Positions 10,524 through 33,466 of a DNA stretch of 33,567 nt are shown piece after piece. The stretch is from Candidatus Sumerlaeota bacterium (lineage in GTDB: Bacteria; Sumerlaeota; Sumerlaeia; JAFGJS01). How positions within the stretch are numbered: position 1 is the stretch's first letter; the number at the start of each line of letters is the position of its first letter. The DNA lies in NCBI GenBank assembly GCA_016928995.1, contig JAFGJS010000061.1, positions 1 through 33,567 on the forward strand. The letters are read 5' to 3'. The notes beneath the pieces were generated by a model. It was given only the letters and a program-made list of their open reading frames with translations. It was not told where the DNA came from and did no database searches. The position numbers and the translations under genes were made by a program.

Positions 10524-12107
10524 TCAACCGCGCCGCACGAGCTCGCCGTTTTCAAACTCGGGCGGGATGTACGCCGCCGCTTCGATGGCATCTAGTTCCT
10601 GTTTCCAGACGTGATTTTTCCGCGCCACCCATACATAGAGCAGCGCGGCGGCGGCGAGATAAAACAGCGACGCCAGCTGGCCGGGATAATCCGCCAGGTT
10701 GATCGCCGGTGGCAGCAGGCCGGCGCTGGACTTGCCGATGTCAACATACGCGTACATGGGCAGCGCGTAAAACGGGGAGATGCCCGCGATTAAATGCAGC
10801 GATGTGTGGACTAATGTATCCAGGCCCATCGGCAAGACGATCGCCAGCAACGCCACGATCCACAGACTGGCCGCGGCGCCAAAGGCGATGCGGAAGCAGA
10901 CGCTGCGCTGGTAAAACTTCAATGAGAGAGCGCGGCTGAAGACCGCGAGGAAAATAAACGGCGGGATGAGTGAAAACGCCATCGCTTTGAATTGCGTCAA
11001 GGCCAGGGCGCCGCGCGTGCTGAAGAACCACCAGCCCAGGCCGCTCGTGCAGACAATCAGCGCGATGAAATACAGAATCCCGTCGTCCAACACGGCGAGC
11101 GCCGGAACGCGCTGATGGATTTTCCAATTATCCGTCCCTACCTCGACTTGATGGATGTTCAGGATGATCGCCCCGGCGAAGTAGATCAGCAGCGACAGGG
11201 ACCACCAAGTGTACAGCGCCTGCGTCGTCATTTTCGGCAACGCCCAGAACACTCCGACGACAGTCAACAGCAGCGTCATCGACATTAACGTATACTGCGA
11301 GTAGTTCAGCGGGCGGTTGTCAAAGTCGTACACCTTGCGCGCGGCGATCACCAGCGTGACCAGCGAGATGAACAGCGGCGGCAGCGAGGCAAAAAACCAA
11401 TCCGGGATCATATAGCCGAACACCGGCAGCGCGCCCTGGCCGAACAGCGTGCTGCTGGCGCCGAACATGGAATAAATGCCCCAGATGATTCTTTGCCGGA
11501 AGAAGAACAGCACGACGAACAGAATCGCCACAGCCAGCATCACGCCCTGGGCCGTGCGGGTTCTTTGATTGATGCTCGACGTGTAGATCCCCAGCGAGGA
11601 AAGCAGGATGGAACCGAGCAGCAATGCGCCGAAGGTCAGGTACACGTCGCTGAGCGAGCGTCCGCCGAAGAGCAGCGTCACGCTCACGATCGGCAGCGCG
11701 CAGCCCAGCAGCAGCATCACGTAGAGCGTGGTGCTGAGGAACGATCCGACGATGTAATGCGACGGCGGCAGCGTAGTCACGCGCAGGAAATCGGCTGTTT
11801 GGCGTTCACGCTCGGCCGTAATCAGCGACGCGGTGATCGCCGGGGCCAGGATCAGCACCAGAATCCCCTGGATGATCTCCATGCCGTTGAAGATGTTCTC
11901 GCCGATGCTCTTGGTGTATTTGATCATCTCTGCGCTGCGGCTCTCGAAGCGCCACAGCCCCGCCGCCTGCACGAGCAGGATCGCCAGCGTCACGATGCAC
12001 AGCGCGCCGACGTAGGCGATGAGGGAATAGATCATCGCCTTCCCGCGCATGCGCCGCCGCATTTCGCGGGTCAGGATGGGGTTGTCTGTGATGATATCGA
12101 GCAACAT
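10524..12107 (-). CDS. ABC-2-type permease (last gene of a three-gene ABC operon)
   Basis: A 527-residue polytopic protein with roughly a dozen hydrophobic segments. The N-terminus NPILTREMRRRMRGKA is typical of ABC-2 permeases that work with GldA/NatA-like ATPases, and TAERERQTADFLRVTTLP is the cytoplasmic coupling-helix region. GGGAG lies about 9 nt before the ATG at 12107. In the direction of transcription it follows the ATPase gene, but the expected tight junction is occupied by the four-helix-bundle element; the left inverted arm begins only 16 nt upstream of this ATG. If the transcript is cut or folded there, this gene's expression could be set apart from that of its partners. The substrate is unknown. 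Confidence 0.78.
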   Translation of the reverse strand: MLLDIITDNPILTREMRRRMRGKAMIYSLIAYVGALCIVTLAILLVQAAGLWRFESRSAEMIKYTKSIGENIFNGMEIIQGILVLILAPAITASLITAERERQTADFLRVTTLPPSHYIVGSFLSTTLYVMLLLGCALPIVSVTLLFGGRSLSDVYLTFGALLLGSILLSSLGIYTSSINQRTRTAQGVMLAVAILFVVLFFFRQRIIWGIYSMFGASSTLFGQGALPVFGYMIPDWFFASLPPLFISLVTLVIAARKVYDFDNRPLNYSQYTLMSMTLLLTVVGVFWALPKMTTQALYTWWSLSLLIYFAGAIILNIHQVEVGTDNWKIHQRVPALAVLDDGILYFIALIVCTSGLGWWFFSTRGALALTQFKAMAFSLIPPFIFLAVFSRALSLKFYQRSVCFRIAFGAAASLWIVALLAIVLPMGLDTLVHTSLHLIAGISPFYALPMYAYVDIGKSSAGLLPPAINLADYPGQLASLFYLAAAALLYVWVARKNHVWKQELDAIEAAAYIPPEFENGELVRRG

Positions 12108-12123
12108 GGTTACGCTCCCGCGT

Positions 12124-12175
12124 AAGGGTCTAGGGTCTGGGGTTTAGGGTCTGGTGATGGAGCGGCTGTGCCGCA
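12124..12175 (+). repeat. Left inverted arm of the four-helix-bundle element
   Basis: The arm reads AAGGGTCTAGGGTCTGG, GGTTTAGGGTCTGG, then TGATGGAGCGGCTGTGCCGC. It pairs with the reverse complement of 12673-12726 with about eight differences, several of which would be G-U pairs in RNA. The unit is a heptamer, AGGGTCT or GGGGTCT. Confidence 0.85.
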
Positions 12176-12255
12176 AATAAATAGATAACTTTCATTTAAG
12201 CGGGCGAAAACGCCGTTGTCTCCATGTCATCAGAAAATTCGCATTTTCAAAACTT

Positions 12256-12618
12256 TTACTTATCCTTTAAGGAATCCTCCAGTTTGTGCAGCATCCTGCC
12301 GATGATTTGCAGTTCATCCCAGATTGGTTTAATTTGCTCCTTATTCACGTATGATAGTTTTGAAGCGACGATCAGCAATGTTTCCAATTCAGCAAGCGAT
12401 CCTTTGGCGAATGAGATGTGGCGCAGATAATCCCCACGATGCACCCGGGCGTAACCTTCTGCGATATTCGCCGGAATAGAAACTGCCGCTCGTTGGGTTT
12501 GGCTGATCAACCCGTACTTTTCTTCAGCCGGATATAATAATGTCAAAGAATAAATCTGCACTACCAACTCGATCGAACGCTTCCAAACATCCAAATCGCG
12601 ATATGATTTCAACGCCAT
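12256..12618 (-). CDS. Four-helix-bundle protein (23S rRNA-intervening-sequence / S23 type)
   Basis: A 120-residue helical protein with the full family signature: DLDVWKRSIELVVQIY at the start, EEKYGLISQTQRAAVSIPAN, then IAEGYARVHRGDYLRHI, FAKGSLAELETLLIVA and a final amphipathic helix. Length is standard (about 115-125). Homologues were first seen as ORFs in intervening sequences of bacterial 23S rRNA genes and occur widely as solitary chromosomal genes; the Avd protein of diversity-generating retroelements shares the fold. Known structures are pentameric, basic bundles thought to bind nucleic acid, but no activity is established. Here it is the only gene between the two inverted arms. No strong Shine-Dalgarno sequence is seen; GAGAAA lies about 8 nt upstream. 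Confidence 0.93.
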   Translation of the reverse strand: MALKSYRDLDVWKRSIELVVQIYSLTLLYPAEEKYGLISQTQRAAVSIPANIAEGYARVHRGDYLRHISFAKGSLAELETLLIVASKLSYVNKEQIKPIWDELQIIGRMLHKLEDSLKDK

Positions 12619-12672
12619 TTCTATTTCTCTACGTTGAGAATATTTATCTATGAAATTTTAAAGTCTCTTATT

Positions 12673-12726
12673 CCGCAGCGTAGCCGCTCCATCCCCAGAC
12701 CCCAGACCCTAGACCCCAGACCCTTT
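12673..12726 (-). repeat. Right inverted arm of the four-helix-bundle element
   Basis: On plus it begins CCGCAGCGTAGCCGCTCC, continues with four AGACCCC/AGACCCT units and ends CCTTT. Its reverse complement aligns with 12124-12175 without gaps over the heptamer section. The inner tip CGCAGCGTAGCC (12674-12685) recurs as CGCAGCGTTAGCC inside the GAGCAA-arm element at 17321-17333. Confidence 0.85.
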
Positions 12727-12737
12727 GATCCGGGAAC

Positions 12738-13679
12738 TCATTGAACGTTGCCTTTCGTAATCGTCATGAAAATATCTTCCAAATCCAATTCCCGCTCCTG
12801 CACGGCTTGCGGGAAGATGTCGTGCGGCGCCAGGACGCGCGAGAGCGAGATGTCCGCCGGGGCGTCTTCCTTCAGGTGCACTTCGAGCCGCACGCCGTCG
12901 ATGCCGACTTCCGCCACGCCTTCGTGCGCGATGAGGATGTCGTGCGTTTTGTTCGCTTCCTCTTCGCTGGCCAGTTTGATGTCCACGATGCGCACGCCCT
13001 TCAGCTTGCTCGTGATTTCGTCGATCGGGCCGCTCACCAGCAGCGAGCCTTTCTCGATGATGCCGATCGTGTTGCAGAGCTCCTCCAGCTCGGTCAGGAT
13101 GTGCGAGGAGATCAGCACGGTCTTGCCCATCTTGCGCAGTTCCTTGAGCAGTTCGCGCATCTCGATGCGCGCGCGCGGGTCGAGTCCGGAGGCCGGCTCG
13201 TCGAGCAGCAGCACCTGCGGATCGTGGATCAGCGTCTTGGCCAGGCAGAGGCGCTGCTTCATGCCGCGCGAGAGCGTCTCCACGTAGGCGTCGTGCTTGT
13301 CCGTCAGGTCGGTCAGCGAAAGCAGGTTGTCGATGATGTCCTTGCGCCGCTCCTTGGCGATCTTGTACGCCGCGGCGAAAAAATCCATGTACTCCCAGAC
13401 CTTCATGTCGTCGTACACGCCGAAGAAGTCGGGCATGTAGCCGATGATCCGCTTCACCGCGTCGGGATCCTTCATCACGTTGTGCCCGCCAATCTCCGCC
13501 GTGCCGGCCGTGGGCTGGAGCAACGTGGAGAGCATCTTGATCGTCGTCGTCTTGCCCGCGCCGTTCGGGCCGATGAAGCCGAAGATGTCCCCCTTGTTGA
13601 TCGTCAGGTTGAGTTGGTTCACAGCCGTCAGATCGCGGAATTTCTTCGTCAGATTGAAGGTTTGAATCATTGCGCTCAT
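12738..13679 (-). CDS. ABC transporter ATPase (GldA/NatA/CcmA-like)
   Basis: A 313-residue ATP-binding subunit. Walker A GPNGAGKTT is at 37-45, the Q-loop position reads YMPDFFG near 81-87, signature LSRGMKQR is at 136-143, Walker B VLLLDEP is near 156-162 and the H-loop is SSHI near 191-194. The C-terminal about 80 residues form the regulatory extension usual in ATPases that pair with ABC-2 permeases. The ATG at 13679 overlaps the TGA of the upstream membrane-protein gene (ATGA), so the two are translationally coupled. The natural permease partner is the gene at 10524-12107, now separated by the inserted four-helix-bundle element. The substrate is unknown. Confidence 0.92.
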   Translation of the reverse strand: MSAMIQTFNLTKKFRDLTAVNQLNLTINKGDIFGFIGPNGAGKTTTIKMLSTLLQPTAGTAEIGGHNVMKDPDAVKRIIGYMPDFFGVYDDMKVWEYMDFFAAAYKIAKERRKDIIDNLLSLTDLTDKHDAYVETLSRGMKQRLCLAKTLIHDPQVLLLDEPASGLDPRARIEMRELLKELRKMGKTVLISSHILTELEELCNTIGIIEKGSLLVSGPIDEITSKLKGVRIVDIKLASEEEANKTHDILIAHEGVAEVGIDGVRLEVHLKEDAPADISLSRVLAPHDIFPQAVQERELDLEDIFMTITKGNVQ

Positions 13680-17227: not shown

Positions 17228-17430
17228 GCATTTTGACTTTGTCCTGTGTCTTTTTTTGCTCTTGCTCTTGCTCTTGTTCTGATATGATGCCTTTTCGCCC
17301 AGCCAATAATTTCATTTCTACGCAGCGTTAGCCAGTTGAATCCGATTTCCAATTCCGGCGCTGGATTCTGATTGAGAGCAAGAGCAAGAGCAGGAGCAAG
17401 AGTCAGCAACGAGAATCCGTACAAACTTGA
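17228..17430 (+). repeat. GAGCAA-arm dispersed element, copy A (203 bp)
   Basis: The left arm has GCTCTT units at 17258-17278 and the right arm GAGAGCAAGAGCAAGAGCAG begins at 17375; they are inverse complements around a loop of about 95 nt. Copy B at 33264-33466 aligns along its whole length: shared blocks include GCATTT, ACTTTGTCC/ACTTTATCC, CCTTTTC, ACGCAG, TTGAATCC, GATTGAGAGCAAGAGCAAGA and a shared tail ending CTTGA. The number of hexamers in the right arm differs by one between the copies. It fills the 335-bp gap between folE and the membrane-protein gene; no gene is present there. Confidence 0.85.
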
Positions 17431-23008: not shown

Positions 23009-23077
23009 ACCACAGAGCACAGAGAACACAGAGAACCGAATTTGTTTTTTTAATTTCACGCAGAGACGCGGAGAACT
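23009..23077 (+). repeat. Two direct copies of the CACAGAGA-type repeat
   Basis: ACCACAGAGCACAGAGAACA begins at 23009 and CACGCAGAGACGCGGAGAAC lies at 23057-23076, both followed by GAATT-type sequence. They match the words at 1738-1825. They separate the CBM9-like lipoprotein from the pseudopilin remnant. Confidence 0.65.
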
Positions 23078-33263: not shown

Positions 33264-33466
33264 GCATTTCAACTTTATCCGGCGTCTTTTCTTGCTCTTG
33301 CTCCTGCTCTGCTTATCAACCTTTTCATGCATCCGTTGATTTTTCCCACGCAGTGTCAACTATTTGAATCCCAATTCTAAACCTGGATGCCAGAATCCGA
33401 TTGAGAGCAAGAGCAAGAGCGAGAGCGAGAGCAAGAGTCAAATACACAAAATCCGGACATGCTTGA
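33264..33466 (+). repeat. GAGCAA-arm dispersed element, copy B (203 bp)
   Basis: The left arm has CTTGCTCTTGCTCCTGCTCT at 33291-33310 and the right arm runs from GAGAGCAAGAGC (33403) to 33440. It matches copy A at 17228-17430 in order and orientation from the GCATTT start to the CTTGA end, with the loop more diverged than the arms and the right arm one hexamer longer. It fills the gap between metF and the gene that ends at 33499. Confidence 0.85.

Follow-up and report, generated by a model that had tools for sequence, protein, structure and literature searches.

S23 proteins are widespread and were first known from the intervening sequences (IVS) of 23S rRNA, and we know of no function for them. 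Among the intergenic repeats of cyanobacteria are the STRR arrays.

The S23 family member of X. campestris has been reported as a pentamer of four-helix bundles, and excision by RNase III is documented for the IVS of 23S rRNA (PMC4990558). Heptameric arrays have been described in Xanthomonas, where GGGAATC heptamers are intergenic and occur as convergent inverted pairs (70-75 cases per genome; PMC4692102), and in Beggiatoaceae, where the unit is TAACTGA (PMC4679880). The intergenic heptamer GGGGA(C/T)T of Nostoc is among the arrays covered by these papers (PMC4692102, PMC4679880), and the terms S23 and four-helix are absent from the texts of both.

The cassettes described here share with the 23S rRNA IVS of Leptospira and Coxiella a gene of the S23 family, complementary ends round the ORF, a location inside a host transcript and a sporadic distribution. 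Unlike these IVS, they occupy an intercistronic site of a protein operon and not an rRNA helix, their arms are tandem heptamers, and free-standing copies without S23 occur. With the heptameric repeats of Xanthomonas, Nostoc and Beggiatoaceae they have in common tandem 7-nt units between genes, the STRR-type organization, and with those of Xanthomonas the convergent inverted pairs. In contrast to those repeats, they mark where gene cassettes end and follow a consensus that crosses phyla.

The S23 cassette between an ABC transporter ATPase and its permease

The window (the whole stretch of 33,567 nt that was analyzed) contains an S23 ORF enclosed by two inverted heptamer arrays. The features of the locus are as follows.

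10524-12107, minus strand: ABC-2 type permease, downstream host gene in the operon (PF12698 match weak and below the cut-off)
12125-12152, plus strand: left arm, array of four (A/G)GGG(T)(C/T)T heptamers (TRF period 7 and arm census)
12153-12185, plus strand: inner part of the left inverted repeat (GGTGATGGAGCGGCTGTGCCGC...), inverted repeat I1, common to other AGGGTCT elements of the genome
12256-12618, minus strand: S23-type gene, 120 aa, co-oriented with both host genes
12664-12696, plus strand: inner part of the right inverted repeat (...GCAGCGTAGCCGCTCCATCCCC), inverted repeat I1
12697-12724, plus strand: right arm, array of four AGACCC(C/T) units, the complement of the left heptamer (TRF period 7 and arm census)
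12738-13679, minus strand: ABC transporter ATPase, upstream host gene in the operon (PF00005, E=5e-30)

The ORF was identified as a member of the S23 family (four-helix bundle) by PF05635 (E=2.9e-35; 121.1 bits, cut-off 33.8) and by TIGR02436 (E=2.3e-32; 111.5 bits, cut-off 24), and its protein is a relative of XCC0516, the S23 protein of X. campestris, whose structure has been solved (2gsc; E=8e-37 with the family profile). A second basis for the permease assignment came from class relatives, in which the same gene directly follows the ATPase. The cassette lacks genes for a transposase or recombinase.

The heptamer arrays continue inward as a further inverted repeat of the GGTGATGGAGCGGCTG / CAGCCGCTCC type (also given as GGAGCGGCTG / CAGCCGCTCC). 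The whole inverted repeat has 62 nt per arm and 79% complementarity, and inner sequence like that of the left arm was also found at C2, C37, C76, C110 and C115 of the genome.

An initial annotation of the window had proposed an S23-type gene between inverted (A/G)GGGTCT arms, with the architecture of an IVS inside a protein-coding operon. The profile matches and the inverted arrays confirmed the former, and the complementary ends, which enclose the ORF in a stem like that of 23S rRNA IVS, the latter. The fit of the cassette at the ATPase-permease junction also held, with gaps of about 13 nt to the ATPase stop (12738) and about 17 nt to the permease start (12107) instead of the 11 and 16 nt given for it; the values vary with the arm boundary chosen.

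The sense RNA of 12108-12737 was predicted to fold at -229 kcal/mol, compared with -178 +/- 8 kcal/mol for 20 shuffles (z=-6.5). This strong stem, the gene family and stem-around-ORF layout shared with 23S rRNA IVS (PMC4990558), and the preference of S23 for the sense orientation are consistent with the initial annotation's view of a true IVS-type RNA element. According to that view, the stem in the operon transcript would be cut by RNase III, the RNA would also be the mobile form, and splitting of the mRNA would be tolerated, given a cut site between cistrons. We regard this as possible but doubtful. Some S23 copies lie antisense to their flanking genes, the 5-bp target duplications described below point to DNA cuts, and 60 S23 loci contained no rRNA match at Rfam gathering thresholds. 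The excess of G-U over A-C in the stems on the sense strand was not significant (154 vs. 126, p=0.11), and excision by RNase III is so far not supported. Sense-strand G-U bias was consequently dropped as a mark of RNA selection. The window itself had no Rfam match, its site being the ATPase-permease junction and not a 16S or 23S rRNA gene.

Arms of S23 genes and of a second gene family

Seven S23 loci were found in this genome, one of them broken (C63); one further weak partial match was excluded. Inverted short-tandem-repeat arms were present at 6 of the 7, in keeping with the initial annotation, for which such arms should recur at other S23 genes of the genome. The unit was different at each of the six loci: (A/G)GGGTCT, GAGGCATC, CTCGTT, CTTAATC, AAATTCTAAATCCG and TTTAGTGTTCAGAG. 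At the C118 locus a hairpin was seen on one side only.

Scanning GTDB genomes with an S23 profile gave 80 loci, picked regardless of arms, from Bacteroidota, Acidobacteria, Clostridia, Treponema, Chloroflexi, Cyanobacteria, Patescibacteria, Planctomycetes, ANME-1 archaea and others. A further 30 came from this genome and its relatives, and 109 of the loci were scorable, covering bacteria and two ANME-1 archaeal loci. Flank inversion was above all 60 dinucleotide shuffles (z>4) at 69 of these 109 loci, and the median flank score was 20.5, compared with 11.5 for 269 control genes of the same loci (p=9e-31). The shuffles and control genes rule out a chance origin of the arms. About a third of the S23 loci fell under the arm threshold, among them L003 and L004, which are visibly armed.

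No S23 match was obtained among 50,697 phage records (one query), and PADLOC gave no match for S23 as a defence-system gene. An Acido-Lenti-1 RNA was observed about 1.5 kb away from one S23 cassette (L126:4846-4891).

Arm pairs with a score of at least 17 (72 pairs) were scored for period. The best period was 7 in 59 of them, and periodicity exceeded that of shuffles in 65. The left arm, read on the S23 strand, had more G than C in 61 of 71 cases (converse in 10; p=5e-10). The consensus of the 59 seven-periodic left arms, over all rotations, was A G (T/G) N N (T/C) (C/T), i.e. AG(T/G)NNYY. Its shared-heptamer information was 3.95 bits, against 2.81 +/- 0.08 bits (maximum 2.99) in column-shuffled controls, and this common core indicates that arms of different loci share a grammar despite their differing sequences. 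Similarity of arms also grew with S23 identity (Mantel p=0.002), the correlation being weak (0.17) and uncorrected for kinship of the hosts.

In an unselected 400 kb of the genome, only eight inverted repeats passed the tandem-arm test, and six of these were short hairpins of short repeats with loops below 50 nt. Gene-bearing armed cassettes are thus not a general background.

A second gene family with its own arm type, missed in the initial annotation, is GxxExxY/PDDEXK_3 (TIGR04256), with eight matches in this genome. Like S23, it is a small gene with inverted short-repeat arms and several copies per genome in the same clade, where 22 of 28 scorable loci lay between inverted arms; unlike S23, it encodes an unrelated protein, which gave a weak Cas4-like profile match, and its arms have another motif. 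These arms (CCACRGAGRCACRGAGR, CACRGAGR motif) have units of 8-10 nt. None of the 22 was 7-periodic, compared with 59/72 for S23 (p=9e-13), and the ACRRAGR motif occurred in 12/22 GxxExxY arm pairs but in 0/72 S23 pairs. The GxxExxY arm motif is dispersed in the genome (57 matches, against none for a reversed control pattern). In the window, a GxxExxY-type array (CACAGAGAACACAGAG) was observed at 23014-23036, directly after a possible stop codon.

Arm type therefore tracks gene family, an argument for arms that are part of the element and not of the host's intergenic background. The converse arrangement, in which S23 genes settle in resident host intergenic heptamer arrays of the STRR-like kind, is improbable. 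It would agree with the solitary heptamer arrays that are common between genes and with those known in Xanthomonas, Nostoc and Beggiatoaceae (PMC4692102, PMC4679880). It is opposed by the different grammars of S23 and GxxExxY arms within one clade, by the GAGGCATC arms of C73, which are almost absent elsewhere in the genome, and by empty sites that lack the arms as well as the gene.

The relative G007 (L252-L280) has many AGTGGCG arrays, mostly unpaired or solitary, which abut stop or start codons. One of these follows a gyrB-like gene, and in the genome studied here an S23 cassette (C81) also lies after a gyrB-like gene.

Dispersed copies, insertion sites and empty sites

Arms of the window's type are dispersed in the 4.55-Mb genome. 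With one mismatch allowed, GGGTCTAGGGTCT had 57 matches, compared with 9 for a reversed control pattern. A census by pattern search and sampled stretches located GGGTCTAGGGTCT-type arms at about 17 places, i.e. about 16 besides the window's cassette, usually without S23. The single element of the initial annotation is real, but the annotation missed that its arms form a dispersed family which also occurs without the gene. Two-armed copies always converge (GGGTCT left, AGACCC right), several have a similar inner inverted repeat, and some show a single visible arm. Cargo-free hairpins of about 150-200 nt were found at C76, C110, C115 and C127, while other copies hold different ORFs. Among these ORFs, one encodes a DUF6882 protein (E=9e-19), and two encode small proteins without a significant family.

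A second armed family was also observed: inverted hexamer arrays (TTGCTC...GAGCAA) with spacers of about 100 nt and no evident gene lie at 17252-17402 and 33290-33437 of the window, and the hexamer recurs at C11, C37, C81 and C105 of the genome.

AGGGTCT arms on copies without S23, and on copies with other cargo (DUF6882, unknown ORFs), suggest non-autonomous MITE-like transposons mobilized by a transposase in trans, with S23 and the other small genes as passengers. Some DDE transposases make 5-bp duplications, which the duplications reported below resemble. For passengers, however, it is unexpected that arm type tracks gene family across phyla, and the RAYT transposases of the genome have their own, different palindromic flanks; this explanation is considered unlikely.

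The RAYT genes (PF01797; L242-L247) are flanked by inverted REP-type palindromes. REP/REPIN-RAYT systems resemble the S23 cassettes in combining a small gene with inverted copies of a dispersed noncoding repeat and in having gene-free copies between genes, but the S23 cassette has no Y1 transposase and its arms are tandem arrays rather than REP palindromes. Both systems are present in this genome, and the detection of the RAYT flanks suggests that comparing flanks can recognize a known system of this type.

With strands assigned by a composition-scored test, S23 was co-directional with both neighbors at 63/74 loci, compared with 43/72 control genes (p=8e-4). The distance from the upstream stop codon to the left arm had a median of -1 nt and was 15 nt or less in 31/53 cases. 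Host junctions include atpG-atpD, frdA-frdB (names read from sequence) and cas6-cas4.

In some cases the arms run into host genes and apparently supply their first codons (L183:3347-3400, metH-like; L191:3357-3440, cas4-like; C105:35588-35660 (L048), mnmE-like; these names were given by reading the sequence). In three cyanobacteria (L191, L215 and H139, Pseudanabaena galeata), S23 was observed between cas6 and cas4 of CRISPR loci; in a close relative (L312), an unrelated hairpin occupies this junction.

An empty orthologous junction, as anticipated for the window's site in the initial annotation, was found in four class-level relatives, which have the ATPase and permease and no cassette between them. 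In L092 (relative G001), the orthologous ATPase is followed by a TCGTGC array and an unrelated gene in the permease's place.

On cyanobacterial plasmids, the S23 cassette was present or absent between related records that are up to 98% identical. The sites are listed below.

Site A (tra operon): filled in Trichormus variabilis and Scytonema, empty in Microchaete, Aulosira and Nostoc linckia (97.4-97.9% identity)
Site B (traM): filled and empty (about 94% identical); in Nostoc ATCC 53789 this junction has an armed element that lacks S23
Site C: cassette antisense between nrdB and nrdA, empty relative 85% identical
Site E: exact 5-bp duplication TTCTA, beside a one-base loss
Site F: TAATG/TTATG, four of five bases matching
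Sites D, G and H: intergenic DNA too divergent for reading a duplication

At site A, empty AAAAAGTAATTAACAAAT corresponds to filled AAAAAGTAAT-element-GTAATTAACAAAT, with a 5-bp duplication of GTAAT. Exact target duplications were seen at two sites only (A and E); apart from these and site F, the intergenic DNA is eroded or replaced, and sites B and C, like D, G and H, gave no clear duplication. In Nostoc ATCC 53789, Aulosira and Trichormus, the S23 genes have 78-81% DNA identity and lie at three different sites, with CAGGAGTCAGAAT arms in all, indicating that gene and arms travel jointly.

These empty sites, and the related elements at different sites, bear out the mobility suggested in the initial annotation. 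Inverted ends, dispersed copies and presence/absence, as expected of a transposon, were all found, the presence/absence coming from the cyanobacterial plasmids and, for the window's own site, from the class level. An ordinary, immobile orphan gene enclosed by a regulatory hairpin or a pair of terminators would account for a long stem between co-transcribed genes; the empty sites and presence/absence polymorphism, the dispersed copies and the unrelated arm sequences at different loci make this reading hardly credible.

Proposed mechanism and wider meaning

The armed architecture, its breadth, the gene-specific arm grammar, presence or absence at the same site and related elements at different sites are probably best explained by a mobile cassette of IVS-like build, consisting of one S23-type gene and gene-specific inverted arms of short tandem repeats.

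Such a cassette would insert at intercistronic junctions, usually right where the preceding gene's stop codon lies, and clean insertions would show a target duplication of 5 bp. It would be kept mostly in the sense orientation, so that S23 is probably translated from the readthrough transcript of the host operon. In the most likely mechanism, the S23 protein would recognize the arms or their hairpin and then recruit a nuclease, polymerase or reverse transcriptase supplied elsewhere, and new copies would need an enzyme that lies outside the cassette's coding. Copies that lack the S23 gene would derive from the same arm family as non-autonomous forms. By analogy with 23S rRNA IVS, the arms in the mRNA may form a long stem around the ORF, which RNase III may cut.

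S23 is distantly similar to Avd (bAvd), the accessory protein of DGRs, with both profile matches below the cut-off (PF22296, E=1e-4; NF033474, E=6.5e-5, 23.2 bits, cut-off 80). No reverse transcriptase gene was found in the window, and the assembly yielded a single one, on a different contig. With these scores and no adjacent reverse transcriptase, S23 was not assigned as an Avd of a DGR.

No paper joining S23 or GxxExxY genes to repeat arms was found in searches of open-access papers, and the link is provisionally regarded as new. On a wider scale, we tentatively suggest that the cassettes could represent a previously unrecognized class of mobile elements in prokaryotes, one that occurs in many bacterial phyla and in some archaea. 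Its members would carry one small gene (S23, a GxxExxY nuclease, perhaps others) between inverted short-repeat arrays with a motif specific to the gene family, and would insert at stop codons within operons. S23 would then be the arm-recognition protein, and the rRNA IVSs would be rare copies that landed in rRNA.

The heptamer arms at operon junctions, the empty sites and the duplications provide the S23 family with a testable hypothesis of arm recognition and mobility. They also suggest an origin for part of the unexplained intergenic heptamer arrays of Xanthomonas, Nostoc and others. Finally, many operons carry apparently parasitic inserts between their cistrons, which are annotated as ordinary small genes.
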